Source of the DNA: a virus
Virus record (IMG/VR): IMGVR_UViG_3300038954_000740
Span: 1-37,163 of that record
DNA: 37,163 nucleotides
Reading direction: 5' to 3' (one strand)
Part shown: piece by piece, positions 1 through 37,163 of the stretch
Layout of the letters: every line of letters starts with the position of its first letter
Position numbering within the stretch: the first letter of the stretch is position 1
Notes under the pieces: model-generated
Told to the model about the DNA's origin: nothing
The model's database searches: none
Seen by the model: only the letters and a program-made list of their open reading frames with translations
Program-made: the position numbers and the translations under genes

Positions 1-29
1 TCCGTCGACCGCGCGATGCGGCTTCCGCA
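1..29. repeat. Terminal overlap, first copy
   Basis: The first 29 bases are identical to the last 29 (37135-37163), and the longer element they belong to continues across the junction without a break. This is what an assembler leaves when it closes a circle. It is therefore best read as an assembly overlap of a circular molecule, not a biological terminal repeat. Confidence 0.9.
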
Positions 30-453
30 CGGAGCGACGCGCCCCGGCTGCCGGCCCCCAACGCGAACGAGGACCGACCGACCGCGCGGAGGTGCCGAGG
101 CCGGGGCGACGATGCGAACCCGACCACGTGCCCCAACAGCCCGTGAGCACCGGCGTCCCTGGTGCGCCACGTAGCGCGGCGCCGGGCCTTGTGGCCACCC
201 GGCACGCAGCTGGCACCGCAACCGGCGGCCCGGCCCAGGGAGCGGACGAGGATTCCGACGTGATGTGTGGAAGCGCGGCTGTGCCCCACGTCTGCACGTG
301 CACGGAGCCCGTCGGAGTGGACGGGCCGGGGCACAGGGGAAGCGCTGGAACGCGTATTTCCTTGCCAACGATCTGGGGAGCCGCGTAGCCCGCCGAACCA
401 CGTTCGCTCAGAGCCGACAAGTTGCGCCCGTCCGGGGTGTGGTGCGACGAATC
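1..453 (+). ncRNA. Structured non-coding element copy B, 3' part
   Basis: Continuation across the circle junction of the element that begins at 36953. It aligns with 13490-13920 with scattered substitutions and single-base indels that break every reading frame, so it is unlikely to code. It contains a perfect hairpin with 7-bp arms GCCCGTC/GACGGGC (about 308-327). In the other copy one C-G pair of this stem becomes U-G, which still pairs on the + strand only. A second stem pairs GCCGGGCC with GGCCCGGC across a variable loop (about 181-234). The shared 3' end is a small C-rich/G-rich hairpin followed by GTGTGGTGCGACGAATC. Function is unknown; a large plasmid/phage-borne RNA or a replication or partition locus are the main options. 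Confidence 0.55.
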
Positions 454-511
454 CCGCGAGAATGAACGCCAAAACGCGCTAACACGGGTTAGATTGCGTT
501 TCGGGGGTTCA

Positions 512-539
512 ATGCAAAATAACGGGTGTTATCGTGCAT
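512..539. other. dif-like Xer recombination site 1 (candidate)
   Basis: An 11-6-11 layout: ATGCAAAATAA, spacer CGGGTG, TTATCGTGCAT. The arms are inverted repeats matching at 9 of 11 positions and end inward in ATAA and TTAT, as in dif, cer and pdif sites bound by XerC/XerD. It lies directly 3' of structured element B, the same place where element A is followed by a serine-recombinase site. No Xer gene is in the window, so host XerCD would be needed. This assignment is an inference from layout. Confidence 0.45.
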
Positions 540-565
540 TGGGCACACATCAGATGCACATGATA

Positions 566-12212: not shown

Positions 12213-12230
12213 TAGGTAGGTACCTACCTA
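12213..12230. promoter_or_regulatory. Partition operator 1, site 3 (TAGG palindrome)
   Basis: TAGGTAGGTACCTACCTA is a perfect 18-bp palindrome overlapping the 3' end of the RHH gene. TAGG tetramers also stand between the two partition genes and upstream of parA. It is probably bound by the RHH protein. Confidence 0.7.
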
Positions 12231-12512
12231 CGCCGTGCGGTCCAGGTACAGCCGAATCAGATCCTCGAGGACGAATCGCATCTGGAGCCCTTCCGCCTGG
12301 ACGTGTGCCTTGAACCGGCGCTTCAGCTCGTCCGGCAGGTCGATGTTCGTCTGTTTCCGGCGGGGCTTCTCGTCCGCGTCCCGCTCTTCGGCCACGCGCC
12401 CCACGTCCGTCCAGTCGAGCGGAGCGGCTGCGCCTTGCGCGTCGTCCGAGCCCTGAGCGGCCCGCTGCTGCTTCTTCGATCGAAGAGCGTCCCCGAGTCC
12501 GGTGTCTGACAT
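12228..12512 (-). CDS. Ribbon-helix-helix partition protein (ParB/ParG-like), cassette 1
   Basis: 94 residues. The N-terminal half is charged and disordered (RSKKQQRAAQGSDDAQ). The C-terminal part, KQTNIDLPDELKRRFKAHV then QMRFVLEDLIRLYLD, is a ribbon-helix-helix fold. This two-part layout (flexible arm plus RHH) is that of centromere-binding proteins such as ParG and Omega that work with ParA ATPases. It follows parA on the same strand with a 26-bp gap that holds TAGG repeats. It probably binds the TAGG repeats at 12213, 12512 and 13204, represses the operon and stimulates the ParA ATPase. Confidence 0.88.
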   Translation of the reverse strand: MSDTGLGDALRSKKQQRAAQGSDDAQGAAAPLDWTDVGRVAEERDADEKPRRKQTNIDLPDELKRRFKAHVQAEGLQMRFVLEDLIRLYLDRTA

Positions 12513-12538: not shown

Positions 12539-13195
12539 TTACTGAGCGGCGATCTGCGCGGTGTCCTGAAGGAGCTGCCGGACTTCGGCCGCGGCCTTGT
12601 CGTCGTACCCGTCGAGGACCGTACGGCCGTCCTGGACCGCGTAGGCGTACGCCACGCGCTGCGCGGTGCCGTCGAGCACCGGAAAGCCGTAGACGTCGAG
12701 CACGTCGGCAATCTGCTTCGCGAGGGCCGTCCGCGGGTCGCGCCGGCTTGCCACGAAGGCCGGGCGGATGGTGCCCTCGTCCGCGGCCGTCTGCACGGTG
12801 TCCATGAACTCGACGGTGCCCCACAGATCCAATGCCGACGGCTGCACGGGGATGAGGAGCACGTCGGCCACCGCGGCCACAGCGCCGGTGTGCGTTCCGA
12901 GCCGGGCGGACCCGTCAATCACCACCGCGTCGACGCCGGCCGCGTGACGCTCCACGAGAATCCCGAGCTGGCCCGCATTCGTCGCGCGCTCGACGCGGGG
13001 GCCGTCATAGTCGGCCGGGCTTCGAGCTCGCCAGTCGCGGGCGCTGCCCTGCGTGTCGGTGTCCAGGATCACCGTCTCGTATCCGTCGAGCTGGATCGCG
13101 CGGGCGAGGTTCACCGCGATCGTGGTTTTCCCGCACCCGCCCTTCGGGTTCTGCACGGCAATCACGAGGGCATCCACGTCCGGGCGCGTCGGCAT
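12539..13195 (-). CDS. parA: ParA-type partition ATPase, cassette 1
   Basis: 218 residues. It has the deviant Walker A NPKGGCGKTTIAVNLA (residues about 15-30), the A' segment VILDTDTQGSARDW with the signature Asp, and a Walker B-like VVIDGSARLG. It lacks an N-terminal HTH extension, so it is a small type Ib-like ParA that relies on a separate DNA-binding partner, here the RHH protein. It would form a DNA-associated gradient to separate plasmid copies. The start at 13195 is just downstream of four TAGG tetramers (13204-13219). It differs clearly from the second ParA in this window (35852-36673), so the two partition systems are not recent copies. Confidence 0.93.
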   Translation of the reverse strand: MPTRPDVDALVIAVQNPKGGCGKTTIAVNLARAIQLDGYETVILDTDTQGSARDWRARSPADYDGPRVERATNAGQLGILVERHAAGVDAVVIDGSARLGTHTGAVAAVADVLLIPVQPSALDLWGTVEFMDTVQTAADEGTIRPAFVASRRDPRTALAKQIADVLDVYGFPVLDGTAQRVAYAYAVQDGRTVLDGYDDKAAAEVRQLLQDTAQIAAQ

Positions 13196-13203
13196 TGTGC
13201 AGA

Positions 13204-13219
13204 TAGGTAGGTAGGTAGG
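13204..13219. promoter_or_regulatory. Partition operator 1, site 1 (upstream of parA)
   Basis: Four head-to-tail TAGG tetramers, 8 bp upstream of the parA start. Likely operator and centromere-like site of cassette 1, bound by the RHH protein. Confidence 0.75.
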
Positions 13220-13283
13220 CGAGACGAGAGGATGCAACGTCGGGACGAGCTCGCCACGGCGTCAAGATGTGTGGAGCATGAGA

Positions 13284-13920
13284 AGCGCAGATCCGCACCG
13301 GCAGGGGCTCACCCGCGACCCGGCCCCTCCGGTGCGGATCGGAGCGACGACCAGGCGGCTGCCAGCGATCGGGGCACGATCGGCGGGCGACGTTCAGGAC
13401 GGCCGGACACGCCTGGAGGCGTCCGGGGCGCATGAGCGACGCGGGGAGGAAGCAGGCGCGGGAGGTCCGTCGACCGCGCGATGCGGCTTCCGCACGGAGC
13501 GACGCGCCCCGGCTGCCGGCCCCCAACGCGAACGAGGACCGACCGACCGCGCGGAGGTGCCGAGGCCGGGGCGACGATGCGAACCCGACCACACGCGCCC
13601 AACAGCCCGTGAGCAGCGTCGTCCCTGGTGCGCCACGTAGCGCGGCGCCGGGCCTTGCGGCTGCCCCTACACGCAAACGGCACCCCGGCCGGTGGCCCGG
13701 CCCAGGGAGTGGACGAGGATTCCGACATGATGTGTGGAAGCGCGGCTGTGCCCCACGTCTGCACGTGCACGGAGCCTGTCGGAGTGGACGGGCCGGGGCA
13801 CAGGGGAAGCGCTGGAACGCGTATTCCCGTGCCAACGACTGGGTGGACGGACAGCCCGCCGAACCCACGTCCGCTCAGAGCCGAAAGATTCCGCCCCGAA
13901 GGGGTGTGGTGCGACGAATC
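13284..13920 (+). ncRNA. Structured non-coding element, copy A
   Basis: 637 nt, aligning end to end with 36953-37163 joined to 1-453. The first 300 nt differ at only about seven positions, the rest at more, with single-base indels that destroy all frames. Clear stems: GATCCGCACCGG (13290-13301) plus AGGGGC (13303-13308) with GCCCCT plus CCGGTGCGGATC (13323-13340); CGATC (13366-13370)/GATCG (13378-13382); CCGGA..CGCC/GGCGTCCGG; GGAAGC (13448-13453)/GCTTCC (13486-13491); GCCGGGCC (13647-13654)/GGCCCGGC (13694-13701); GCCTGTC (13774-13780)/GACGGGC (13787-13793); CCCC-GAAG-GGGG near 13895. Three substitutions inside stems change A-U to G-U (13297, 13368) or C-G to U-G (13777). All keep pairing on the + strand and would break it on the minus strand. 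No known RNA family was recognised. It starts about 90 bp upstream of, and divergent from, parA. Confidence 0.6.
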
Positions 13921-13989
13921 GAGCGAGAGCGGATGCGATCTGACGGGGTGCACATCCACCGCACAATGTCCGCAGGGGCGTTTCGGGGT

Positions 13990-14017
13990 TGTACAAACAT
14001 TCTTGAAAGTTTGTACA
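13990..14017. other. res-like inverted repeat of the serine recombinase
   Basis: TGTACAAAC (13990-13998), 10-bp spacer, GTTTGTACA (14009-14017): perfect 9-bp arms in a 28-bp site, the size of a resolvase/invertase subsite. A further half-site TTGTAC is at about 14030. It lies 54 bp upstream of the recombinase start, so it could serve both as crossover site and operator. It directly follows the last bases shared with the half-1 copy (GCGTTTCGGGG), where half 1 instead has dif-like sites. Confidence 0.6.
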
Positions 14018-14071
14018 GGCTTCGCCACGTTGTACGGCCCGTCCGATCCGACCGAAAACCGCCCCGCAGCC

Positions 14072-14821
14072 ATGCCGACGTTCGCTGCCTACACCCGCGT
14101 CTCCACTCGTGAGCAGGCCGAAGGCCACGGCCTCGGTACCCAGCGCGAGAAGATCCGACAATGGGCCGACCTGCACGACGTGGAGGACCTGGAATGGTAC
14201 GAAGACCCGGGCGTCTCCGGTGGGACGATGGACCGGGACGGGCTCATGTCGATGCTGGCGGCCGTCGAGGACGGAGACGTCGCGGGCGTGGTCGTCTACA
14301 AGGCCGATCGGCTGTCTCGCAGCCTGCGGGATCTCCTCACGATTCTGGACCGGCGTCTGGAGCCGAACGAAATCCGCTTCGTCTCCGTCACCGAGCAGTT
14401 CGACACGTCGACTGCGTCGGGGCGGCTCTTCCTCCAGATGCTTGGATCGTTCAGCGAGTTCGAGCGCAACGTGATCACCGAACGCACCACCGAGGGGCGC
14501 CGATCGAAGGCCGAGCGCGGGGGCCACGCGTGCGGATCGGTGCCGTACGGCTACCGGAAGAGCGAGGACGGCGAGCTCGTGGAGGACCCGGACACCGCAC
14601 CGATCGTCCGGCGGATCTTCCGCGAGCGGGACGCCGGCGAGTCGCTACGAGCGATCGCCGAAGGGTTGAACGACGACGGCATTCCCACGCGGCGCGGCGG
14701 GGACTGGCACGCGTCGACCGTCTCGTACATCCTGAAGAACCCGAAGTACCGCGGCGTCATGCGACACGTCTTCAGCGGGAAGGAGATGGAAACGGAGGCC
14801 GAGCGCCTGGAAATCGCGTGA
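14072..14821 (+). CDS. Short serine recombinase
   Basis: 249 residues. The N-terminal resolvase domain (about 1-140) has the catalytic Ser in YTRVSTREQ (Ser11), the arginine-containing YKADRLSRSLRDLL and the conserved FLQMLGSFSEFERNVI. A 'Recombinase' domain follows (about 150-235: VPYGYRK...DPDTAPIVRRIFRERDAGESL...GIPTRRGGDWHASTV...NPKYRG). The zinc-ribbon and coiled-coil C-terminus of large serine integrases (usually 450 residues or more) is absent and the frame ends with its own stop. It is therefore either a compact resolvase/invertase-like enzyme or a truncated integrase. The start at 14072 was chosen because the longer upstream frame runs into the non-coding element. Likely role: dimer resolution or cassette inversion/exchange at the adjacent res-like site. 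Confidence 0.93.
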   Translation: MPTFAAYTRVSTREQAEGHGLGTQREKIRQWADLHDVEDLEWYEDPGVSGGTMDRDGLMSMLAAVEDGDVAGVVVYKADRLSRSLRDLLTILDRRLEPNEIRFVSVTEQFDTSTASGRLFLQMLGSFSEFERNVITERTTEGRRSKAERGGHACGSVPYGYRKSEDGELVEDPDTAPIVRRIFRERDAGESLRAIAEGLNDDGIPTRRGGDWHASTVSYILKNPKYRGVMRHVFSGKEMETEAERLEIA

Positions 14822-15292: not shown

Positions 15293-15352
15293 GGCGCCCG
15301 CCCCAAACCCGGACAGGCTTCGTCCGGGCTCCGCTGGCGGGCGCCGTACGTT
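15293..15352 (-). repeat. Branched palindromic element, second copy
   Basis: Outer arms GGCGCCCGCC (15293-15302) and GGCGGGCGCC (15336-15345), inner arms CCCGGAC (15308-15314) and GTCCGGG (15322-15328). The sequence and the trailing GCGCCGTACGTTG match the element at 606-670. Each copy lies beyond the 3' end of one of the two paralogous minus-strand operons. It may be a terminator or a small palindromic repeat family. Confidence 0.6.
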
Positions 15353-15361
15353 GGTTGGAAT

Positions 15362-16935: not shown

Positions 16936-17481
16936 CTACACCGACGGGACGCGGCCGCGAATGGCCTGGACGAATCCGTCGTCGATCCGCTCCTCGATGC
17001 GACCGGCCTCCGAGGCGTACCGCTGTGCGATCCGGAGCGCGGCTTCATCGCCCGTGTCCGCATGCCGGTTGAGGAAGTCGCACGCGAGGCGCTGCGCCCG
17101 TCGTTGCTCGTCCCGTAGGTCCTCCAACTCGTCGGACGTCATGCGAGTAGGCTCCGAGGTCGTGTCCTCCACGTCGAGCGCCGGCGGTGCCCCATCGCCG
17201 GACGTGGCTCCGTCGCCGACGAAGGTCGTGCCCACGAACGTCTCGTGCGGGCTGCCGACGAGCTCCAGGAGTTCGGTCTGGATCGTATCGAGCTCGTCCC
17301 GCTGGTCGGCCGAGAGCTCACCCGCGGCGCCCAGCTGCGTGAGGACGGCTTCACGGCGCTCCAGCTCGTCAACGTGTTCGGCCGTGTCCCAGTCCATGCC
17401 GTCGCTGACGAGCGACTTGATACGGGCCCAGTTCGGGGAATCGTGTTGCTGAACAAGTGCTGCTTTCTCAGAGTTGGTCAT
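16936..17481 (-). CDS. Acidic helical protein with conserved N-terminus, copy 2
   Basis: 181 residues, the same length as the copy at 1699-2244. The first 55 residues are nearly identical (MTNSEKAALVQQHDSPNW, then IKSLVSDGMDWDTAEHVDEL) and the DNA is also highly similar there. The C-terminal half is largely different (DELEDLRDEQRRAQRL, then a helical end). The pattern of one conserved and one diverged half suggests recombination or selection for a fixed N-terminal interaction with variable C-terminal specificity. First gene of the minus-strand operon in half 2; divergent from the HTH/toxin-antitoxin operon. Confidence 0.85.
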   Translation of the reverse strand: MTNSEKAALVQQHDSPNWARIKSLVSDGMDWDTAEHVDELERREAVLTQLGAAGELSADQRDELDTIQTELLELVGSPHETFVGTTFVGDGATSGDGAPPALDVEDTTSEPTRMTSDELEDLRDEQRRAQRLACDFLNRHADTGDEAALRIAQRYASEAGRIEERIDDGFVQAIRGRVPSV

Positions 17482-17896: not shown

Positions 17897-18214
17897 ATGC
17901 TCGACCGGATTGTATACACCGACCATGGTGAAGAAAAACGGCGGGCTGTAGGCGTGTCGGCCCCCGAGGTACGGGCCGTACTTGCCAACGGGACCGTTCT
18001 ACGCCGCTACCCCGAGGACCGCCCGTTTCCGAGCTATCTCGTGCTGGGGTGGATCGACGGTCGACCGGTGCACGTGGTGGCGGCGGATGACGAGGATCGA
18101 GAGGTTACGTGGATCATCACGATCTACGAGCCCGACCCGGACAAGTGGACGGAAGGCTTCAAGTGGAAACCTGAATGGAAGAGCACTGAAAACACATGGA
18201 AAAGCGAGAACTGA
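17897..18214 (+). CDS. DUF4258-type toxin of a toxin-antitoxin pair
   Basis: 105 residues. The beta-rich core with PSYLVLGWIDGRPVHVVAA followed by VTWIITIYEPDPDKW matches the DUF4258 pattern (hydrophobic strands, HVV, then IITxYxPD and a conserved Trp). DUF4258 proteins are found with YgiT/MqsA-type zinc-finger antitoxins, and exactly such a gene overlaps its end by 19 bp. By family analogy with MqsR and related folds it is expected to be a translation-linked RNase. The activity is inferred. Confidence 0.85.
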   Translation: MLDRIVYTDHGEEKRRAVGVSAPEVRAVLANGTVLRRYPEDRPFPSYLVLGWIDGRPVHVVAADDEDREVTWIITIYEPDPDKWTEGFKWKPEWKSTENTWKSEN

Positions 18215-18492
18215 AGGAGGCCCTACATGACGTTGAGGACCTGGAGGGCACACCGTGCTTCCATTGCCCAGAAGGGACGATGGAGCTCGGGACCGTGACC
18301 CGCACGCTGGAGGATGGAGACACTGTCCTCGTGGTGAAGGACGTGCCGGCGCTCGTGTGCGACCTCTGCGGGGCTCCGTCCTTCCCGGAGAGCGTGAGCG
18401 TTCACCTGGAGGAGCTGATGAACGTGGCTGTGACTGCCGACGTCGACTCGGCCGTGCAGCACTACACGCATCCCAAACCGCAGGCTGCGTGA
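18196..18492 (+). CDS. YgiT-type zinc-finger antitoxin
   Basis: 98 residues. CFHCPEGTMELGTVT and LVCDLCGAPSF carry the four zinc-binding cysteines of the YgiT/MqsA N-terminal domain. The usual C-terminal HTH of MqsA is absent, as in many DUF4258 partners; the end is a short helix. It overlaps the toxin gene by 19 bp. It would bind and neutralise the toxin. Confidence 0.9.
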   Translation: MEKRELKEALHDVEDLEGTPCFHCPEGTMELGTVTRTLEDGDTVLVVKDVPALVCDLCGAPSFPESVSVHLEELMNVAVTADVDSAVQHYTHPKPQAA

Positions 18493-19383: not shown

Positions 19384-19417
19384 AACGGGAACTGATTGAG
19401 ACCTCGACTCACCATTT

Positions 19418-19434
19418 TTCGCGCGCAAACGCTG
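19418..19434 (+). repeat. Dispersed motif copy upstream of HTH gene 1
   Basis: TTCGCGCGCAAACGCTG, preceded by TTT, 10 bp upstream of the ATG at 19445. Same motif at the same place before the tandem paralog at 19782. Confidence 0.8.
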
Positions 19435-19444
19435 GTGACAGCTG

Positions 19445-19747
19445 ATGACAGACGAAGAGCTGCGGACCCTAGCGGACTACGTCGTCGACGAGCTCGAGCA
19501 TCGCGGCCTCGTGACGCCGCGCGAGCGCGACCTCGTGCCCGTGCGCAAACTGGCTGAAGAGGAGGATGTGAGCCGCAGCACGGTGTACCGCCGGCTGAAC
19601 CGCTACGACATCCCGAAGCGGGACGTGACGGGCAAGCCCAAACCCGAGGGGGACACGCGGACGACGTACGTGAGCCGGTCGGAGTGGCGGTCGGCTGGCG
19701 AACTCTCCACGCGCCAGGTGCGACGAGCCGACGGTCAGTACGACTAA
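19445..19747 (+). CDS. HTH protein, tandem copy 1
   Basis: 100 residues. The N-terminal helix LRTLADYVVDELEHRGL is followed by an HTH: VRKLAEEEDVSRSTVYRRL, then NRYDIPKRDVTG. The C-terminus is basic (RQVRRADGQYD). It is about 90% identical to the next gene, including DNA, so this is a recent tandem duplication. Both copies carry the dispersed motif just before the start codon. It may be a DNA-binding protein acting on that motif or an excisionase-like factor; the differences between copies cluster in the HTH (RSTVYRR versus TRTVYRR). Confidence 0.85.
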   Translation: MTDEELRTLADYVVDELEHRGLVTPRERDLVPVRKLAEEEDVSRSTVYRRLNRYDIPKRDVTGKPKPEGDTRTTYVSRSEWRSAGELSTRQVRRADGQYD

Positions 19748-19763
19748 CCACACCCCCAGTTTT

Positions 19764-19781
19764 GTTCGCGCGCAAACGCTG
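19764..19781 (+). repeat. Dispersed motif copy upstream of HTH gene 2
   Basis: GTTCGCGCGCAAACGCTG directly abuts the ATG at 19782. There is no other ribosome-binding signal. Confidence 0.8.
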
Positions 19782-20084
19782 ATGACAGACAAAGAGCTGC
19801 GAACCCTAGCGGACTACGTCGTCGACGAGCTCGAGCGTCGCGGTCTCGTGACGCCGAGCGAGCGCGACCTCGTGCCCGTGCGCAAACTGGCTGAAGAGGA
19901 GGAGGTGAGCACACGCACGGTGTACCGCCGGCTGAACCGCTACGACATCCCGAAGCGGGACGTGACGGGCAAGCCCAAGGCAGACGGCGACACGCGAACG
20001 ACGTACGTGAGTCGGTCGGAGTGGCGGTCGGCCGGCGAACTCTCGACGCGCCAGGTGCGACGAGCCGACGGTCAGTACGACTGA
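19782..20084 (+). CDS. HTH protein, tandem copy 2
   Basis: 100 residues, the near twin of 19445-19747. Substitutions are few: K for E at position 4, E-R-R-G for E-H-R-G, SERD for RERD, VSTRTV for VSRSTV, and KADG for KPEG. The last 30 residues are identical. The HTH would be in the middle (residues 31-60). It is followed by a 618-bp gene-free region with a small RNA. Confidence 0.85.
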   Translation: MTDKELRTLADYVVDELERRGLVTPSERDLVPVRKLAEEEEVSTRTVYRRLNRYDIPKRDVTGKPKADGDTRTTYVSRSEWRSAGELSTRQVRRADGQYD

Positions 20085-20202
20085 CCGTGTAGAACTTGAC
20101 TGTGCTTCGAGCCGTGCTGTGAGGTGGTATTTCCGTTATGTTTGCGGGCCCAAATCAGCCTTCAGACGCGTCAAACGCCGGTTTTCCCTGTTAATCTTCG
20201 GG

Positions 20203-26446: not shown

Positions 26447-29400
26447 ATGCCACGACCGCAGAGACGCACCAATCAAGAGCACACGTTCGGCGGAGCCGCC
26501 GGACAGCTTCGGCGCACCCTCGAAACTGCGCTCCGTGAGGGGAACGACGAAGCCGCCGTCGAGCTCGCCCGCGAGGCGAGGAAGATGCGTGCGATCACCC
26601 CAGACGAGTACATGACGATCGTGCAGACACGCGCCGGTGGGGACGGCGCGACGGCGGCCGCGGACGGGGCGTCGCTCGACGTCCGCCCGAGCGACGCCGT
26701 TCGCACGCAAACATCTGGAGCGACATCCAGGACAGGAACGGAGAGTCGTGACGACCCCAACGGCGACTCCCTTGACGCGGTCGCCCGGGCACGACGCCGG
26801 CTCCAGAACGGCCGGCTCCAGGACGGAAGCCAGGCGGCCGAAGACGACGTTCGCGTGCAAACGCCACGCGAGGGCACGGCGCCCGACACGACAGAGCTCG
26901 ACCCAGTCGCACGAGCGCGCCAGCGTCTGCAGGCTGGAGGCCCGACGCCGGATTCGGCCGTGCCCGTAGATACGACCCGTACGGCAGCCGCGATGCAGCA
27001 CCCCGGCTCGGCGCGTACGGGGACCGGCTCTCGTTCAGAGACCGACCCGCCGGACGAGGAGCCCGGCACACTGGGCGCCCTGTGGAACGCCGTGCAGCGC
27101 GGATACCACAATCTGCGAGCGGGGCTGTCGGAGCTGGAGGCGCAGACGTCGTTCGACGAGATCTCTCGTCAACTCTCGCAGATCGAGGCGGACTACCAGG
27201 CAGAGCAGGCCCGGCAGGAGCCTCGTAGCCGCGGAGCCGCACGGACGGCCGAGCGGATGCAGGAGGCGCGCCAGGAGACGACAGAGCGCGTCAAACTGGA
27301 CCCCTTCGGCATCCTCACGATGAGTGGGGAGAGCGCGCGCCGCGCCGGCATCGAGCCCGAGGAGCGCACGCCGACAGAGGTCGAGCGCTTTGGTCAAGCC
27401 GCGGCCGAGGACCCGTCGGGCGCCGCGCAGCTTGCGGCCGAACTCGGGGCAGAGTCGGTTCCCAGCCTCGGATTCACCGCATTGGCCGGAGGCGGAGGCT
27501 CGTCCGCCGGTCGCATCGGTGCGATGTGGCTCGCCGGGTCTGTCCTGGAGGCCGGGCAGAGCCTCCGGGATGCCGCCACCGACCCGGAGACGGGGGAACG
27601 TCGTCCGGTGGAGCCGCGGGACAAGGCGTTGGCCATCGCGGGCGGTGTGGGGGCCGGCGCCGTCGAGGCGATCGGTGCCGCGGGCGTCTCGCAGGGCGTG
27701 CGTCGCCTTCTCGACAAGGCGAATCTCCCCGAGGCGGCGCAGCAGGCCGCCGAGCGTGCGATCGGTCGGGAGCTCCGACGCTACGCAAGCGAGACAGCGA
27801 AATCCGGAGTCGGAGAGGGCACGACCGAGGTTATTCAGGGGATCATCTCCGACGTGGCCGCACAGCAGGGGTGGGACCCGGAGCGCGAGATTGGCGACGG
27901 CTGGTTTCAGCAGTTCCTTGCTGGCTTCGGTGCCGGCAGCGGCGTGACGTCGATCGCTGGAGCCCCCAGCACGGTCGCACGTGCAGCCGGTGGGGGTCGA
28001 GCGGGCACGTCGCAGGCCACTGGACCGGAAGGGCCGACGGGGCAAGCACCCGCGGCAGCACCGAGCACAGGCGGCGAGACAGGCCCAACTGGTTCGGCAC
28101 AGGGAGAGCAGACCCGAGAGCCGGACGCCACGGGCGAAGTGGCTGACGGCGACGTTCGCGCTCAAACACCCGCATCGACGGAGTCGCCCGTCCAGGCAGC
28201 ACGCCGGCGCCTGTTCGACGCTCTTGCGGTGGCCACACCGGAAGAACTGGCGGCCGTCCGGCAGCAGACGGCAAGTCCCGCCGTGCAGGAGGAAATTGAC
28301 ATGGAACGCCGCGTTGGGCGAGGAGAGGACGTGGATATGGCCACACCGCTTCCCGACGTCGTGCCCGAAGACGTCTCGGTGCGCCCGGAGATCCGGGAGG
28401 CCGTGCAGGCTGTCGAGGAAGCCGAACGCGCTGAAGCGACGGAGGCAGCACCAGGTGCCGAGCCGACTCGTCCGGTGGCCACGGAAGCGGAGACCACCGA
28501 ATCGTCTGCTCGTCCGGACGCAGAGGCAGCACGACTACGGCTCGCGGACGAGCTTGCGACTGCATCACTGGAGGAGCTGGCGTCCGTCCGAGAGCAGACG
28601 ACGAGCTCCGTTGTCCAGGAGGAAATTGACTTGGAGCGCAGTGCCGGCCGCGAGGAGGACGCGGACACAGCCGTCGAGCTCCCGGACGTCGACCCTGCCG
28701 AGGTGGACGTTCGGCCGGAGCTCCGGGACGCCGTTCGTGCCGTCGAGCAGGCCGACCCCGATGCGGACGCGGATGTTCGCGCGCAAAGGCCAGAGGAAGG
28801 CACGTCGCCGACGTCCGTGCCCGATTCTGTGCCCGACGTGGTGCGCGAGAATCCCGAGCAGGCCCACCAAGCGGCCGAATCGGCGCTGGAGGAGCGCCGG
28901 CAGCGGCTCGCGTCCGTCCTCGAGGAGACGAGCACCGGTGAACTGGCGGCGCTCCAGGAGCAAACGGAAAGCCCCGCGGTGCAGTCGGCGATCCAGGACG
29001 AGCGGGCCCGTCGCGGCGAGACGGCCGACCCGATCGAGCTCCCCGACCCCGCAGAGGCCGCGCCGATCGACGCGGAACGCGACGTAGCACGTGCGGCGCG
29101 TGACGTGAAGGTTGCCGAGCAGGCCGTAGGCGAGGCCGAGGCCGTGCTGGAGGCCCAACGGGCAGAAGCCGGACGCCCTGAAACGGCGCCGGCAGGGGCC
29201 GAGTCCGATGCGCGTGGGGATGCCACCGGTGAGAGGAGCGCAGAGGCAGACGTTCGCGCGCAAACACAACGGCCGTCGCGCCGTCCCCGCAGCGAGAAGG
29301 ACGTGCTGGAGGAGGTGGCGCGCACGTCGGAGGACCCGGCGGAAATCGCACTCGCGTACCGCCAGGCGCGCGACGTGGAAGAGACGCAGGATACGTCCAG

Positions 29401-32400
29401 CGACGTGGAGCAGGCCATCCGCGACATCGGCCGCGTGCAGACGCAGAGCTACGAGGACGTGGTGGGATCGAACGTGCAGGCCGACGAGGGGGTCGTCCGA
29501 CTGCGTTTCCTGAGCCGGGACGGAATGCCCATCGACCAGGTGGCCCAAGAGGTCACGCAGGAGGTCGGCCGCGAGGTGTCCGTCCAAGAGGTGGCCGACA
29601 CGCTCCGTGACATGGGCACGCGCACCCAGGAGCGGCGCACGTCCGACCGGCTGGCCGACCGGTTCGAGCAGGTGACGGGGCAGCGACTGACCGAGCGCCG
29701 GGCCGAGGCGGCCATTCAGGAGGCCATCGAGGAGGAGGGCGAAGGCGCACCGGAAGAGACGACCACGGACGACCCCGAGCCGTCCATGGTTGCGCCCTTT
29801 CAGACCGAGGGACAGGCCGCCACGCCGCGTTCCCGATCGACCAGCGACCCGGCCCCGTCGGAGGCATCGGAGGGCGATGTTCGCACGCAAACGCCACGTG
29901 AGGGCCGCACGGCCGCCATGCGTGCCGAGGACGGCGGAAGCGTTGAAGAGGGCAGCACCGACGGAGACGAGAACGGCCGGATTCCGGTCGACCCCCGGGA
30001 CGAGGACGGCGAGGACGTGGCCGACTTCCGCGTGATGCTGGAGGACCTGCAGAGCGACACGGGCGTCACGATCCAGCGCGCAGAGCTCCAGGCCGGCGTT
30101 GCCGGACAGTACGACCCGACGGACGCAAGCGTGGTGCAGCGCCGGCCGAACGATGTGGACACGGCGATTCACGAGGTCGCCCACGCGCTCGATGATCGGT
30201 ACGACGTACTGGGCCCGTACGAGGGGGAGTCGACGAGCCCGCTCGACGAGGAATTGATCCCGGCGTTCAGCCAGCACGGAAGCGGCACCGCAAGCGGCGA
30301 ACGCGGCACGGCCACGTACAACCGCGCAGAAGGCTTCGCCGAGTGGCTACGCGCATACGCCGCCAACCCGGAGGCGGCCCGCGAGGCAGCGCCACGGACC
30401 TACGAGCGCTTCGTGGAGGCCGTGCCGGAGTCCGCACGCGAAGGCGTAGAGCGCTTCGGCCGGCGTTGGCGCCAGTGGGCACAGGCCGCACAGGAGGGCG
30501 ACCCGGCCGCCACGACGGCGAACGTCGAGCTCGGATTTGACGAACCCTCTCTCGTCGAGCGGATCAAGGAGCGGTTCAGCGGCCTCTTCGAGCCGGTGGG
30601 CGTGGGGGACACGTTCTGGGATCGGTTGGGGCAACGCGTGTGGGAGTCGATGCGCGTCACGTTCAAGGCGTGGGATTTGGCCCGCGCGATGCAGGGGATG
30701 GAGGAGCTGGAGGTGGACGAGGACTTCCGGGCCCTGCACAAGCTGTTCAACGGCATCGATGGCGTCGTGGAGACGTACATCAAAAGCGGCCTCCAGACCT
30801 ACGACGGCGAGCCGGTGCGTGGGCCCGACGGCCAGCCGCTGGAGGGCTTCGCGTCCATCTTCGAGCCCCTGCTTCGGAGCACGAAAAGCGAACTGCAGGA
30901 GGACCTACGCGCCCTCGTCGCGCTTCTCATCAATGAACGCGTGCTCGAAAAGGGACAGAACCTCCGAGACGCGGCCGAGATCATCGCCGCGTGGCCGGAT
31001 CTCCGCGCCGAGCTCGTCGAGGACATCGAGGCGCAGCAAAAGCGCGTGGAGGAGGCGAAGTCGATTCTGCGGGCCTACCGCGAGCAAGGGCGCCGAGACG
31101 GCTCGATCGGCCAGCAGAAGGAGGCCGTAAAGCAATCCCGTCAGCGCCTTCGAGAGAAGCGTAGGGAGCTCCGAGAGGCCCGCGAGCAGGTGCGAGAGGC
31201 ACAAGATCGGCTCGGCTACGACGGCGACCCCGAGGGCGCGATGGAGTACGCAGAGCGCCGCATTAGCCGGCTTTCGGGCGTGGGCGGTGGCACGCAGAGC
31301 GACGAGACGGTTGCACGTACCTTCCTGGAGCGCCTGCAGGAAGACCCGGAGCGCTACGAGCGGTTGCAGACGGCCGCCAAGCGCTACCGCGCGTGGGCCG
31401 ACGGTCTCCTCCGGCGAATGGTCGACGCCGGGATGCTGACGGAGCAAAAGTACCAGCAGATCAAGGAGGAGAACCAGTACTACGCGGCGTTCAACCGGGT
31501 GCCGGGGCGCGAGGAGGCGTTCGTGATGGGGAGCGTCAGCCCGGCCGTCCGGCGCGCCACTGGCAAACTGACCGGCGATCGGCAGATTCTGTACCGGTTC
31601 AAGGGATCGACGCGGCGCCTGGAGAACCCCATTGCTTCGTTGTTGGGACAGACCTTCGCCGTCGTGTACGAGACGGAGGCAAACCGTATGAAGCGGGCGT
31701 TCGTCGAGCCCTTCCGCTCCGATCGCGGCATGTACGAGGGGGAGGTCCTGGAGCTCGGGCACATCGTCCGGCGGGCCAAGGCCGGTGACGAGCGGACGAT
31801 CACCGTCCACCGGGATGGCGAGCGGGAGTACTGGCAGATCAACGACCAGCTGTACGACACCTGGAAGGAGGTGGAACGCCCCGATCGGGCCCGCGGCGCC
31901 GTCGAGGGGCTACAGCGCGCGATCCAGACGAGCCGAGAGCTTATCACGCATGCCCCGCCGTTCGTACTTCGGCAGCTGCAACGCGACCCGCAGGAAGTGG
32001 CGATCAAGAGTGATGAAGGCGCCAAACCGTGGGACCTGCTGACGTACGCGACGAAGGAGGGGCGCGAGCAGTTCACCGAGGACCTGGAAAACCTCCAGAC
32101 TGCGGGCGGTGCAAACTTCGGGTGGTATCGGAGCGGTCGGGAGGGCTACTACGAGGAGCAGCGGCGCATCATCGACGATCTCGCGGAGACGGACGACGTC
32201 ACCACCACCTTCGGCCGGATCCGAAAGGCCGCGTCGGGCGCGCTGGAGTGGTATACGACGAGAGTTCGGCAGGCAGAAAGCGCGTCCCGCCTCGGGCACT
32301 TCCGCCGCGCGTACGAGCGGTACCAGGAGCAAGGCTACGACGAGTTCGACGCCCGCCGGCTTGCGGCCCGTGATACGCGCGACCTGCTCGACTTCGCCCG

Positions 32401-33562
32401 CGGCGGGACCGTGGTGAAGGAGCTAAATCGCTACCTGCTCTTTCTGAATGCGGCCGTACAGGGCATCCGGTCGGCGATCGAGACGGGCGCGAAGAAGAGC
32501 GCCGCCAAGTACGCCGCCCGGATCATGCTCGTAGCCGTGCTTCCGGACATCGCGGTCTACACGTGGAACGCGATGGCCGGCGGCGAAGACGAGCTTGAGC
32601 GGTGGCGACAGGAGCCTGCGTACCTGAAGGACTTCTTCTATACGTTCCGGATTCCGCTACCCGGCGGCGAGTGGCAGGTTCTACGGGTTCCCAAGACGTA
32701 CGAGTACGGGCTGATTTCCAGCCTCTTCGTCCGCGGTCTGGACGGCGCGTTGCACCTGGCCACCGACGGAGAACGTGGGGGCAGCCGTCCGTTCGCGGGC
32801 TACGAGGACAGCGCCCTCAAGGGGCTCGTCCCGATTCATCCCGAAGCGGTCCTCACGTCTCCGGCACTCGCCCCCGTCGCCGCGGCCGCCAACCGGGATT
32901 TCTTCAGAGGCGAGCAGATCGTCCCGCCCTACGAGGCGAAGCGTGACCTGGACTTGCGGGAGGGCACGAGGTACGCGTCGCGCCTGGGGCAGCAGGTGCA
33001 AGAGCTCGTGGGCGTCGACGCCCGGAAGATCGACTTCCTGATTCGGAATCTCAGTGGCGGAACCGGGCGCCTCTTCATGACGGCCTCCGACGTCGGGAAG
33101 GACGACACGGCCGGCCGCGAGTTCTGGATGGACGCGACCGGGCTATTCGTCCATCCCCCAGTCTACGGATCGCGAGACGTTCAGTACGTGCTCGACTGGG
33201 CTGAGGATCGTGGGAAGATGAACCTCGACGCCGTTGAGCGCCTGCAAGACATGGTGGGCGCCGTCTATGAGGCCAAGACCGCCGAGGAGCGCCGCACACG
33301 GGCTGAGCGCCTATGGGAGTATGCCCGCCAGGTGCGCGACGACATCGAAGCCCGAGCGGATGAGGACGGCTCGACGCCAACCAGCGACGCGAGTGCCGGC
33401 GCGCCGGGTCGTCTCCTCGAGGAGATGGGATTCCGTCGGTCGCGTACGGGCGACACAGGCGCAGACGACACCGACGGCACCCCACGGCGCCGCGTCACGG
33501 ATCTCCTCGGGACGCCGTCTGAGCAGCCGAATCGGCGCCGCATCGAGCACCTGTTCGGATAG
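26447..33562 (+). CDS. Giant polyvalent protein with HExxH peptidase and LPD38-like C-terminus
   Basis: 2371 residues. About 1-1200 is mostly disordered, acidic and Ala/Glu-rich, with one Ala/Gly hydrophobic region (about 320-500) and an ~80-residue unit repeated three times (starting near 585, 693 and 813; cores PAVQEEIDMERR, SVVQEEIDLERS, PAVQSAIQDERA). A metallopeptidase-like domain follows: HEVAH at 1242-1246 and a downstream YNRAEGFAEWLRAYAANP with the possible third ligand. About 1330-2300 is a long helical region ending in an LPD38-like part (ELNRYLLFLNAAVQGIRSAI near 1992-2011, then YLKDFFYTFRIPLPGGEW). Polyvalent proteins of this kind are injected with phage DNA and carry several activities. 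The motif GTTCGCRCGCAAACG is read in frame six times as VR(A/T/V)Q(T/R) at residues 85, 135, 570, 777, 936 and 1145. Confidence 0.93.
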   Translation: MPRPQRRTNQEHTFGGAAGQLRRTLETALREGNDEAAVELAREARKMRAITPDEYMTIVQTRAGGDGATAAADGASLDVRPSDAVRTQTSGATSRTGTESRDDPNGDSLDAVARARRRLQNGRLQDGSQAAEDDVRVQTPREGTAPDTTELDPVARARQRLQAGGPTPDSAVPVDTTRTAAAMQHPGSARTGTGSRSETDPPDEEPGTLGALWNAVQRGYHNLRAGLSELEAQTSFDEISRQLSQIEADYQAEQARQEPRSRGAARTAERMQEARQETTERVKLDPFGILTMSGESARRAGIEPEERTPTEVERFGQAAAEDPSGAAQLAAELGAESVPSLGFTALAGGGGSSAGRIGAMWLAGSVLEAGQSLRDAATDPETGERRPVEPRDKALAIAGGVGAGAVEAIGAAGVSQGVRRLLDKANLPEAAQQAAERAIGRELRRYASETAKSGVGEGTTEVIQGIISDVAAQQGWDPEREIGDGWFQQFLAGFGAGSGVTSIAGAPSTVARAAGGGRAGTSQATGPEGPTGQAPAAAPSTGGETGPTGSAQGEQTREPDATGEVADGDVRAQTPASTESPVQAARRRLFDALAVATPEELAAVRQQTASPAVQEEIDMERRVGRGEDVDMATPLPDVVPEDVSVRPEIREAVQAVEEAERAEATEAAPGAEPTRPVATEAETTESSARPDAEAARLRLADELATASLEELASVREQTTSSVVQEEIDLERSAGREEDADTAVELPDVDPAEVDVRPELRDAVRAVEQADPDADADVRAQRPEEGTSPTSVPDSVPDVVRENPEQAHQAAESALEERRQRLASVLEETSTGELAALQEQTESPAVQSAIQDERARRGETADPIELPDPAEAAPIDAERDVARAARDVKVAEQAVGEAEAVLEAQRAEAGRPETAPAGAESDARGDATGERSAEADVRAQTQRPSRRPRSEKDVLEEVARTSEDPAEIALAYRQARDVEETQDTSSDVEQAIRDIGRVQTQSYEDVVGSNVQADEGVVRLRFLSRDGMPIDQVAQEVTQEVGREVSVQEVADTLRDMGTRTQERRTSDRLADRFEQVTGQRLTERRAEAAIQEAIEEEGEGAPEETTTDDPEPSMVAPFQTEGQAATPRSRSTSDPAPSEASEGDVRTQTPREGRTAAMRAEDGGSVEEGSTDGDENGRIPVDPRDEDGEDVADFRVMLEDLQSDTGVTIQRAELQAGVAGQYDPTDASVVQRRPNDVDTAIHEVAHALDDRYDVLGPYEGESTSPLDEELIPAFSQHGSGTASGERGTATYNRAEGFAEWLRAYAANPEAAREAAPRTYERFVEAVPESAREGVERFGRRWRQWAQAAQEGDPAATTANVELGFDEPSLVERIKERFSGLFEPVGVGDTFWDRLGQRVWESMRVTFKAWDLARAMQGMEELEVDEDFRALHKLFNGIDGVVETYIKSGLQTYDGEPVRGPDGQPLEGFASIFEPLLRSTKSELQEDLRALVALLINERVLEKGQNLRDAAEIIAAWPDLRAELVEDIEAQQKRVEEAKSILRAYREQGRRDGSIGQQKEAVKQSRQRLREKRRELREAREQVREAQDRLGYDGDPEGAMEYAERRISRLSGVGGGTQSDETVARTFLERLQEDPERYERLQTAAKRYRAWADGLLRRMVDAGMLTEQKYQQIKEENQYYAAFNRVPGREEAFVMGSVSPAVRRATGKLTGDRQILYRFKGSTRRLENPIASLLGQTFAVVYETEANRMKRAFVEPFRSDRGMYEGEVLELGHIVRRAKAGDERTITVHRDGEREYWQINDQLYDTWKEVERPDRARGAVEGLQRAIQTSRELITHAPPFVLRQLQRDPQEVAIKSDEGAKPWDLLTYATKEGREQFTEDLENLQTAGGANFGWYRSGREGYYEEQRRIIDDLAETDDVTTTFGRIRKAASGALEWYTTRVRQAESASRLGHFRRAYERYQEQGYDEFDARRLAARDTRDLLDFARGGTVVKELNRYLLFLNAAVQGIRSAIETGAKKSAAKYAARIMLVAVLPDIAVYTWNAMAGGEDELERWRQEPAYLKDFFYTFRIPLPGGEWQVLRVPKTYEYGLISSLFVRGLDGALHLATDGERGGSRPFAGYEDSALKGLVPIHPEAVLTSPALAPVAAAANRDFFRGEQIVPPYEAKRDLDLREGTRYASRLGQQVQELVGVDARKIDFLIRNLSGGTGRLFMTASDVGKDDTAGREFWMDATGLFVHPPVYGSRDVQYVLDWAEDRGKMNLDAVERLQDMVGAVYEAKTAEERRTRAERLWEYARQVRDDIEARADEDGSTPTSDASAGAPGRLLEEMGFRRSRTGDTGADDTDGTPRRRVTDLLGTPSEQPNRRRIEHLFG
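26699..26715 (+). repeat. Dispersed motif, in-frame copy 1 in the polyvalent gene
   Basis: GTTCGCACGCAAACATC, encoding V-R-T-Q-T from residue 85. Confidence 0.8.
26849..26865 (+). repeat. Dispersed motif, in-frame copy 2
   Basis: GTTCGCGTGCAAACGCC, encoding V-R-V-Q-T-P from residue 135, preceded by Asp and followed by R-E-G. Confidence 0.8.
28154..28170 (+). repeat. Dispersed motif, in-frame copy 3
   Basis: GTTCGCGCTCAAACACC, encoding V-R-A-Q-T-P from residue 570, just before the first ~80-residue repeat unit. Confidence 0.75.
28775..28791 (+). repeat. Dispersed motif, in-frame copy 4
   Basis: GTTCGCGCGCAAAGGCC, encoding V-R-A-Q-R-P from residue 777, between the second and third repeat units. 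Confidence 0.75.
29252..29268 (+). repeat. Dispersed motif, in-frame copy 5
   Basis: GTTCGCGCGCAAACACA, encoding V-R-A-Q-T-Q from residue 936, after the third repeat unit. Confidence 0.8.
29879..29895 (+). repeat. Dispersed motif, in-frame copy 6
   Basis: GTTCGCACGCAAACGCC, encoding V-R-T-Q-T-P from residue 1145, followed by R-E-G as in copy 2, about 100 residues before the HEVAH peptidase motif. Confidence 0.8.
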
Positions 33563-34130: not shown

Positions 34131-34158
34131 CGCCCACTTATGACCGCCCACTTATGAC
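34131..34158 (+). repeat. Perfect 14-bp tandem duplication at the start of the small-terminase-like gene
   Basis: CGCCCACTTATGAC occurs twice head to tail (34131-34144 and 34145-34158). The first copy's ATG opens a 5-codon frame (M-T-A-H-L) whose TGA overlaps the real ATG at 34154 as ATGA. Confidence 0.9.
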
Positions 34159-34960
34159 TGACATCCTTCCTTCCTCCGACAGGCCTGATGCCGACGCGGC
34201 TGCGCTCCAGGCGCGCGAGGAGGCACTCAGCTCGTGCAAAAGCCTGAAGCAGCGTCGCTTCGTGGAGTACTACGTCGAGAGTGGCGTTGCGACGCGCGCC
34301 GCGGACGAAGCCGGGTTCTCCGATCCGAGCTACGGCCGCGAGCTTCTGAAGAAAACGCACGTACAGAAGGCGATCCGCGCACTGATCGAGGCAGAGACGT
34401 TGAGCCACGCCGAGGTACGCCATCGGCTCAGCCAACAAATCGTGGCCACGCCGGAGGATGTCCTTGACTACATCGAGGTAGAGCACCTGGTGAGCTACCG
34501 TCCCGGGAGCGAGTGGAAGGTGACCAGCGAAATCACGAGCTCCGTGGCCGGTGCGACGATCGAGCGCCTGAATGTGGAGGAGGCCGAGGAGCTGCGTCTT
34601 CTCCACCAGCTCGTGCGCGAGCCGACCGAGGATCAGGAGGGCCGATCGATCGACGACGTGCGCCAGGCGGCCGCGGCGGGCGACGTTCGGTTCGCCCGTG
34701 TTCACATCGCCGTGCCGGTCGTGAACCTCGAGAAGGCCCGCCGCCGCGGCGTCCTCGGTGCGATCAAGGAGCTGAAGTTCGACAGCAACGGCCGGCCGGA
34801 ACTGAAGATGTACGACAGCCAGGACGCGCTGAAGCACCTGGACAAAATGTACTCGATGACCGAGGAGGCCGGGAGTCCCGAACAGGTCGCGCGCAGCCAC
34901 CTGGAGCGGGTGAGCGAGAAGATGGGGCTACAGGTCAACGTCCTGAACGTCAATCTGTGA
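34154..34960 (+). CDS. Small terminase-like DNA-binding protein
   Basis: 268 residues. Residues about 25-75 (LKQRRFVEYYVESGVATRAA, DEAGFSDPSYGRELLKKTHV, then QKAIRALI) match the HTH region of terminase small subunits (K-Q-x-x-F-V-x-x-Y, N/A-T-x-A-A, A-G-F/Y-S-D). A second region TPEDVLDYIEVEHLVSY and the later AIKELKFDSNGRPELKMYDS and DALKHLDKMY are also usual in this family. It would recognise the packaging site and recruit the large terminase, but no large terminase gene is in the window. Its length exceeds the common 140-200 residues because of an inserted helical/acidic middle (about 120-190). Confidence 0.87.
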   Translation: MTDILPSSDRPDADAAALQAREEALSSCKSLKQRRFVEYYVESGVATRAADEAGFSDPSYGRELLKKTHVQKAIRALIEAETLSHAEVRHRLSQQIVATPEDVLDYIEVEHLVSYRPGSEWKVTSEITSSVAGATIERLNVEEAEELRLLHQLVREPTEDQEGRSIDDVRQAAAAGDVRFARVHIAVPVVNLEKARRRGVLGAIKELKFDSNGRPELKMYDSQDALKHLDKMYSMTEEAGSPEQVARSHLERVSEKMGLQVNVLNVNL

Positions 34961-35807: not shown

Positions 35808-35858
35808 GACATCGTGGGGTCCTGATGTGATGAGGTCATGATGTCGGGAGTTCATGAG
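35805..35858. promoter_or_regulatory. Partition operator 2, site 2 (between parA and RHH genes)
   Basis: The gap between the two minus-strand genes holds GATGAGGTCATGATGTC (about 35829-35845) and flanking CATGA units (CATGACATC and TTCATGAGG). Probable RHH-binding site. Confidence 0.65.
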
Positions 35859-36673
35859 GCGTCCAGCTGCGCCGCATCGTCGGGCATGGGAACCAGGTAT
35901 TTCGCGCCTCCCGGAATGGCAACGGCACCGCTTTGCGCGAGCTCGGCACCGAGCGCCTGGTAGTCCGTCCAGGCCGTCGAGCGGGGCGCATACGTGCCGA
36001 GCAGTTCGCCAGCGGCTTCGGCCTCTCGGACAGACACCGTCGACCGCACGTAGTGCTGGGTTCCGCGGCCGTCCTCGGAGAGGGGCCCGAGGTGCTGCAC
36101 GATCTGCCGGGCCGTCTGAACATCGAGCGTCGTCCGCATGTCGACGTTGCACGCAAACGCGGCCGTCACGTCCGCCCCCCCGAGGCGCTTCGTGAACTGG
36201 AGGACGTGGCGGAGGCCATCGACGGAGCCCCGGCCCGCGGCCACCGGCACCACGGCCGACGTAGTGGAGAGGAGCGCGACCGTCACGAGATCTCCGGCCT
36301 GCGGGGGCGTGTCGAGAATGACGAGTTCGTATGCGGCGGCCGCATTGTCGTACAGGCGCTCCAGCTGCCGCGTGAGGTCCGACGTCCGCCGCTCCGTGGT
36401 GTCGTCGAGGGAGCGGTTCGCAGTCACGACGTCAAGGCGTCCACCGTTGTCGTGCTCGGAGACGGCCGTAATGTGCTTTGTCGGATCGAAGCCGCCGGTG
36501 AGAAGGTGCGTCGACGCGTCCGATCGGGACGCCAGCCACGCCGAGGCTGTCCCCTGCGGGTCGAGGTCGACTAGGAGCACCGACGCCCCGGCACGAGCCC
36601 ATACGTCTGCCAAACAGATCGCAGACGTCGTCTTGCCCGCCCCGCCCTTCAGGTTGCAGACGGACAGCGTCAT
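35852..36673 (-). CDS. parA: ParA-type partition ATPase, cassette 2
   Basis: 273 residues. Deviant Walker A NLKGGAGKTTSAICLAD (about 7-23), LLVDLDPQGTASAWL, Walker B-like ELVILDTPPQAGDL, and a C-terminal region with YVRSTVSVREAEAAGELL that resembles the Soj/ParA C-terminus. Longer than the cassette 1 ParA and of a different subfamily. No N-terminal HTH is seen, so DNA recognition would rest on the RHH partner. The start at 36673 lies directly in the ATGAGGTC repeats; an in-frame ATG ten codons upstream is less likely because it would place the operator inside the gene. Confidence 0.93.
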   Translation of the reverse strand: MTLSVCNLKGGAGKTTSAICLADVWARAGASVLLVDLDPQGTASAWLASRSDASTHLLTGGFDPTKHITAVSEHDNGGRLDVVTANRSLDDTTERRTSDLTRQLERLYDNAAAAYELVILDTPPQAGDLVTVALLSTTSAVVPVAAGRGSVDGLRHVLQFTKRLGGADVTAAFACNVDMRTTLDVQTARQIVQHLGPLSEDGRGTQHYVRSTVSVREAEAAGELLGTYAPRSTAWTDYQALGAELAQSGAVAIPGGAKYLVPMPDDAAQLDAS

Positions 36674-36695: not shown

Positions 36696-36788
36696 CAGAG
36701 GTCTGGAGGTAATCGGAACGTGAGCTCGTGACATCGGGAGGCAACGTCGGCACGGGCTCGCCACGGCGTCAAGATGTGCGCTTCATGA

Positions 36789-36952
36789 GGCCGATCTCGT
36801 GTTACAATGGGCGTGTTACAGCAAGCGCCCCCGAAACGCCGCGAAATCCCCACGTGCAGCCGCTGAAGGCGGATTCGGCCGTAACGCGGGCCCGCAGCTG
36901 TAACACGGCCGAATCGGCCTCCAATCGGGACCGCAAACACAGGTGGGCGAGG
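36789..36952. mobile_element. About 164-bp insertion with inverted repeats in the element-B leader
   Basis: Compared with copy A (CATGAG joined to AGCGCAG at 13278-13290), copy B has about 164 extra bases. They contain GTGTTACA twice (36799-36806, 36813-36820), its inverted form CTGTAACAC (36898-36906), a perfect 11-bp pair GATTCGGCCGT (36872-36882)/ACGGCCGAATC (36905-36915), and the palindrome GCGGGCCCGC (36886-36895). It carries no gene. It could be a MITE-like insertion or a separate iteron-bearing control region. Confidence 0.5.
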
Positions 36953-37163
36953 AGCGCAGATCCGCGCCGGCAGGGGCTCACCCGCGACCCGGCCCCTCCG
37001 GTGCGGATCGGAGCGACGACCAGGCGGCTGCCAGCGGTCGGAGCTTGATCGGCGGGCGCCGGTCAGGACGGCCGGACACGCCTGGAGGCGTCCGGGGCGC
37101 ATGAGCGACGCGGGGAGGAAGCAGGCGCGGGAGGTCCGTCGACCGCGCGATGCGGCTTCCGCA
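36953..37163 (+). ncRNA. Structured non-coding element copy B, 5' part
   Basis: Aligns with 13284-13494 of copy A with about seven differences. It contains the long 5' stem (GATCCGCGCCGG at 36959-36970 with CCGGTGCGGATC), in which an A-U pair of copy A is a G-U pair here, and the CGGTC/GATCG stem, where A-U is again G-U. The element continues at base 1-453 across the circle junction. It begins about 280 bp from, and is divergent to, the cassette 2 parA. The ~50 bp before the insertion (36741-36788) are also shared with 13234-13283. Confidence 0.55.
37135..37163. repeat. Terminal overlap, second copy
   Basis: Identical to bases 1-29. Joining the ends restores a 635-nt element that aligns end to end with an internal copy at 13284-13920, which supports true circularity. 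Confidence 0.9.

Follow-up and report, generated by a model that had tools for sequence, protein, structure and literature searches.

What is a duplicated noncoding stretch of about 640 nt doing beside the partition genes of a virus record, and would it act as RNA or as DNA? The window, that is, the whole stretch of DNA analysed here, is the 37,163-nt IMG/VR virus record IMGVR_UViG_3300038954_000740. A sequence-only reading of it had proposed two copies of a structured RNA-like element that align end to end, and the alignment was found to extend far beyond chance, with self-BLAST identities of 91% over 464 nt and 96% over 215 nt. The refined alignment (13280-13928 against 36949-37163 joined to 30-461) contained 46 substitutions over 649 nt, 26 of them transitions, and four 1-nt indels between copies A and B, at 13597, 13664, 13838 and 13864. 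The differences were clustered, with a 199-nt identical run at 13394-13592 (0/20,000 permutations) and other identical runs of 70, 49 and 48 nt. Constraint, gene conversion or homogenisation by the assembler are the alternatives for the identity of the 199-nt core. Directly outside the element the flanks of the two copies did not align, the one upstream exception in the self-comparison being the parA promoter block. The G+C content of the element is 73-74%, as against 65.5% for the window. The element is real and noncoding, and is present as two near-identical stretches of ~640 nt. The features of the locus are collected in Table 1.

Table 1. Coordinates of the element, its predicted hairpins and its neighbours in the window.
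Feature	Position	Strand	Remarks
Element copy A	13280..13928	+	~649 nt, noncoding; based on alignment to copy B and absence of coding signal
Element copy B, 5' part	36949..37163	+	Continued across the contig ends from position 30 onwards
Element copy B, 3' part	1..461	+	Positions 1-29 repeat the last 29 nt of the contig
199-nt core	13394..13592	+	Identical in A and B; from the alignment
Hairpin H1 (5')	13290..13340	+	18 pairs: 13290-13301/13329-13340, 13303-13308/13323-13328
Hairpin H2	13366..13382	+	6 pairs; 13368/13380 and 13371/13377 become G-U in copy B
Hairpin H3	13403..13426	+	Invariant between copies
Hairpin H5	13746..13803	+	Outer stem 9 pairs; inner stem 7 pairs, 13774-13780/13787-13793
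Hairpin H6	13804..13828	+	9 pairs; 13806/13826 G-C to G-U
Hairpin H8	13892..13906	+	Loop differs; 5 pairs retained, pair closing the loop lost
Dyad TGTACAAACATTC-TT-GAAAGTTTGTACA	13990..14017		Candidate res site; lies between the recombinase gene and copy A
Serine recombinase (resolvase domain)	14072..14821	+	Directly downstream of copy A
Dyad CAATGCAAAATAA-CGGGTG-TTATCGTGCATTG	510..541		Downstream of copy B; form ATAA-N6-TTAT
ParA1	12539..13195	-	Divergent from copy A
RHH partner of ParA1	12228..12512	-	58% to pSR14 homologue
ParA2	35852..36673	-	Divergent from copy B; 59% amino acid identity to S. ruber pSR66/pSR84/pSR47 ParA
Predicted parA1 promoter	13235..13265	-	TTG-N20-CGACGTTG; inferred from Bacteroidota promoter type
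parA promoter block	13230..13282		87% identical to 36737-36789

On sequence similarity the host clade, newly identified here, is Salinibacter. ParA1 shares 83% amino acid identity with the ParA of S. ruber SP38 pSR14 and 82% with that of M8 pSR11, and at the place matching the predicted parA1 promoter pSR14 carries TTG-N20-TAGCTTTT. The first half of the window and pSR14 have in common an HTH gene, tail genes, the RHH partner and ParA. A divergent parA gene had been reported beside both copies, and this holds, with ParA1 at copy A and ParA2 at copy B. That the copies end before recombination sites is plausible, both sites being candidates; by its form, the dyad downstream of copy B would resemble an Xer recombination site. 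Like the window, pSR14 (NZ_CP030359) and pSR11 (NC_014026) show the succession of parA, promoter, noncoding gap, terminator, small - strand genes and HTH gene, but their gap between the parA promoter and the terminator-like hairpin measures ~230-270 nt and has no detectable similarity to the element. Since these plasmids have the same layout without the element, the element is a module that related plasmids have gained or lost. A 60-nt repeat (609-667 and 15295-15353, 82% identical) forms a terminator-like GGCGGGCG hairpin in the window, and pSR14 and pSR11 have similar hairpins in the corresponding position. Besides parA and primase, these two small S. ruber plasmids encode terminase and tape-measure-like genes, and may therefore not be plain plasmids but satellites or phage-plasmids. 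In S. ruber pSR66, ~4 kb upstream of the ParA2-type parA contain no annotated genes, and the ~2 kb adjoining this parA are well conserved in pSR84 and pSR47.

We compared the pairing of the two copies in eight hand-defined hairpins (69 pairs), which were chosen with both copies in view. Six pairs differ between the copies; five of these are still paired on the + strand and none on the - strand, and all five are exchanges between G-U and Watson-Crick pairs. The three stem differences named by the sequence-only reading (13297, 13368 and 13777) proved correct, with pairing kept on the + strand only, and two more of the same type were found, C to U opposite G at both 13377 and 13826, again paired on the + strand alone. 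In H1, A13297 of copy A is replaced by G in copy B, opposite U13333, and the local fold has a z of -2.1 in copy A and -2.7 in copy B; the change at 13777 in the inner stem of H5 is between U-G and C-G. H2 is the neatest case, its two pairs turning to G-U alongside changes in 2 of the 5 loop bases. A hairpin near 13895 (H8) had been said to keep its stem while changing its loop: the loop is indeed changed and 5 of the 6 pairs are kept, but the pair closing the loop is lost. No common stem is kept in the variable 3' part, 13842-13872. The predicted loops on the + strand are 38% A and 6% U.

The folding energy of the whole sequence was unexceptional (z of -1.5 on the + strand and -0.2 on the - strand). 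The consensus fold of both copies gave a z of -3.3 on the + strand and -1.0 on the - strand, where 22 control segments of the window had a mean of -0.89 (sd 1.42) and one of them reached -3.3. Among pairs taken from the fold of copy A alone with a probability >0.8, the changed pairs were kept in 3 of 3 cases on the + strand (P = 0.018), and placement tests on the kept fraction across fold spans gave P values of 0.003-0.19 on the + strand and 0.34-0.93 on the - strand; several of the structure P values are ~0.02-0.1 and uncorrected, and the structure tests are not mutually independent and draw on two sequences only. The structure evidence all points in one direction, each piece being modest. 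The earlier proposal of selection on a + strand RNA was thus supported in part: the description as noncoding, without a family and more structured on the + than on the - strand was borne out, though to a moderate degree only.

The absence of a recognised RNA family was borne out at both gathering and lax thresholds: a cmscan against all families of Rfam 15 gave no match at gathering score, and none at E up to 5 for 13200-14080. ARAGORN detected no tRNA or tmRNA in the window. Searches of phages, plasmids, IMG/VR and GTDB genomes yielded no third copy of the element. With BLASTN, phage and plasmid sequences (the latter also searched at E up to 10) gave chance matches to the element only, none of them in Salinibacter. 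Exact patterns of 21, 17 and 16 nt occurred in 0, 5 and 23 IMG/VR stretches, respectively, all by chance and with no wider likeness to the element, and scans anchored on proteins (ParA1, ParA2, DnaB, primase and the duplicated gene) gave useful relatives in no viral or genome contigs; the IMG/VR and GTDB contig scans depend on exact short matches, and sequences closely related to the window may be left out of them. One covariance model was built for the 5' domain (147 nt) and one for the 3' domain (110 nt); in 429 kb made up of phage M1EM-1, the window and stretches of S. ruber plasmids, only the two copies scored well. The 5' model also matched the - strand inside each copy, because the hairpin is self-complementary. 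In Smith-Waterman comparisons with the noncoding gaps of pSR14, pSR11 and pSR66, the element scored no better than shuffles. No sigma-70 promoter or terminator pattern was seen at the element, and host promoters probably differ from the sigma-70 type.

The reading that we favour, tentatively, is that the + strand yields a structured RNA which serves episome upkeep. We infer both the transcription of the element and its whole function. The + strand would encode a structured noncoding RNA of ~0.6 kb, and the element would be an accessory module in the stability region of Salinibacter phage-plasmids, with the parA promoter on one side and a multimer-resolution site on the other. Transcription would run away from parA, and the RNA would fold as a chain of G+C-rich hairpins with A-rich loops. 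Such an RNA may be stable and may act via host factors in plasmid or episome upkeep, through copy number or segregation. A site specific to one ParA, replication or recombinase protein is unlikely, since the two copies adjoin different genes of these kinds. Should the element prove to be an RNA, an extreme halophile would harbour a large structured RNA of no described family, and as Salinibacter can be cultured and has few sequenced plasmids, deletion and transcript tests are feasible.

The nearest precedent for an RNA in plasmid upkeep would, by analogy, be the 520-nt lncRNA of the L. salivarius UCC118 megaplasmid, which is extremely abundant; when it was deleted, the megaplasmid/chromosome ratio fell from 1.61 to 1.16 (PMC5643018). 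Like the element, it is about half a kilobase long, noncoding, plasmid-borne and present in only some related plasmids (PMC5643018). Unlike the element, which is read from DNA alone, it has a demonstrated transcript and copy-number effect, and the two have no sequence or Rfam relation. GOLLD and ROOL RNAs, often found near tRNA islands in phages and prophages, share with the element a large size, a predicted structure, a location on phage-like elements and the lack of a known function (PMC12286853). Membership in either is unsupported, as the element differs from them in having no Rfam match at E up to 5 and no tRNA in the window. A much smaller case is Rcd, an RNA of <100 nt encoded at the cer site of ColE1-type plasmids and serving plasmid maintenance; it arises inside the Xer site and delays the division of multimer-bearing cells. 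The proposed RNA would likewise be noncoding and adjoin a multimer-resolution site, here an Xer-like site judged from its form, but it is ~0.6 kb long as against <100 nt, and no sequence similarity is claimed.

The alternative that survives best, though we consider it unlikely, is a cis-acting DNA element whose hairpins work as DNA, such as an oriT, a single-strand origin, a packaging site (pac or cos) that a helper recognises, or DNA accessory to the multimer-resolution site. The helper would be a phage or a conjugative plasmid, and sharing of the element by two replicons would reflect a common trans-acting machine. The position between the parA promoter and the recombination-like dyads suits this explanation, as does the absence of promoter and terminator patterns, and G-T pairs are also tolerable in hairpins of single-stranded DNA. 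Among the window proteins scanned there was no relaxase or large terminase, a small terminase (34154-34960) being the only one; therefore, both halves may depend on a helper. Against a cis-acting site, the element, with its ~640 nt and its long conserved core, would be large for a site of this kind, and pSR14 and pSR11 have the same layout and terminase genes but lack the element. Moreover, no potential helper phage or plasmid with a match to the element was found in phage and plasmid collections, and loops that are A-rich on one strand are found more typically in RNA. Two specific sites were also considered: a partition centromere was rejected, as the RHH-operator-like repeats (AGGTAGGTAGG) lie outside the element and ParA differs between the halves, and an element-specific oriV is unlikely because the replication genes also differ between the halves.

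More doubtful is the explanation that the element is recently shared DNA without a function of its own, copied by homologous recombination from plasmid to plasmid or produced by an assembly join at the repeat. The first base of the contig corresponds to 13466, which leaves exactly 127 nt to the end of the 199-nt identical run, and its last base to 13494, 101 nt into this run; the 29-nt terminal overlap of the contig also falls within the run. A usual last k of SPAdes is 127, and a graph at k = 127 leaves a 127-nt overlap at a repeat border. Since both contig ends lie inside the identical run, closure of the circle and the order of the halves rest on the repeat. The record may thus represent a single circle of 37 kb, a cointegrate formed in nature, or a pair of plasmids (~13.5 and ~23.7 kb). 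Each half has its own parA and replication genes, and the first matches pSR14 (14.9 kb), so that a pSR14-like plasmid of ~13.5 kb and another of ~23.7 kb may have been merged; the 199-nt identity may come from a bubble collapse by the assembler, which could overstate the identity of the core. Of the earlier view of one copy per replicon half, then, the two copies are real, while the joining of the halves rests on the repeat. A join can account for the identical core and for the topology. It does not explain why both units carry a 640-nt noncoding block, nor why changes keep pairing on one strand only. The local stem comparisons are largely unaffected by this caveat, because they use column differences only. 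Even if the element were only shared DNA, it would warn that two plasmids may have been joined in this viral record.

A protein-coding gene or a decayed gene is very improbable, and is refuted as far as two copies allow: long open frames do cross the element on both strands, as 73% G+C produces such frames, but in agreement with the earlier claim no frame is conserved between the copies, the four 1-nt indels making the frame inconsistent and a synonymous excess, sought in six frames over ungapped A/B blocks, being consistent in none on either strand.

Returning to a structured RNA, a wider form of the proposal, which we hold to be rather unlikely, is a new family of large structured RNAs on Salinibacter phage-plasmids. 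It would be common to two co-resident replicons (e.g. a phage-plasmid and a satellite) with otherwise unrelated partition and replication proteins, and would serve their joint upkeep or packaging. If it is an RNA, its presence on two replicons with different ParA and replication proteins would suggest a shared function, for example copy control, packaging or mobilisation.

Several other genes of the window were noted. Paralogous genes, one per half, lie on the - strand at 1699-2262 and 16936-17481; they are 57% identical overall with an invariant stretch of ~35 amino acids (IKSLVSDGMDWDTAEHVDELERREAVLTQLGAAGEL), the gene at 16936-17481 has no Pfam match, and the pair has no relatives in the genome contigs scanned. 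A small gene occurs as a tandem duplicate at 19415-19749 and 19762-20086 (91% identical). A possible toxin-antitoxin pair at 17897-18492 (+) consists of a small ORF followed by a protein with a weak match to YokU, a putative antitoxin family. At 26447-33562 (+) the window encodes a protein of 2371 amino acids with a large polyvalent protein domain (LPD38).
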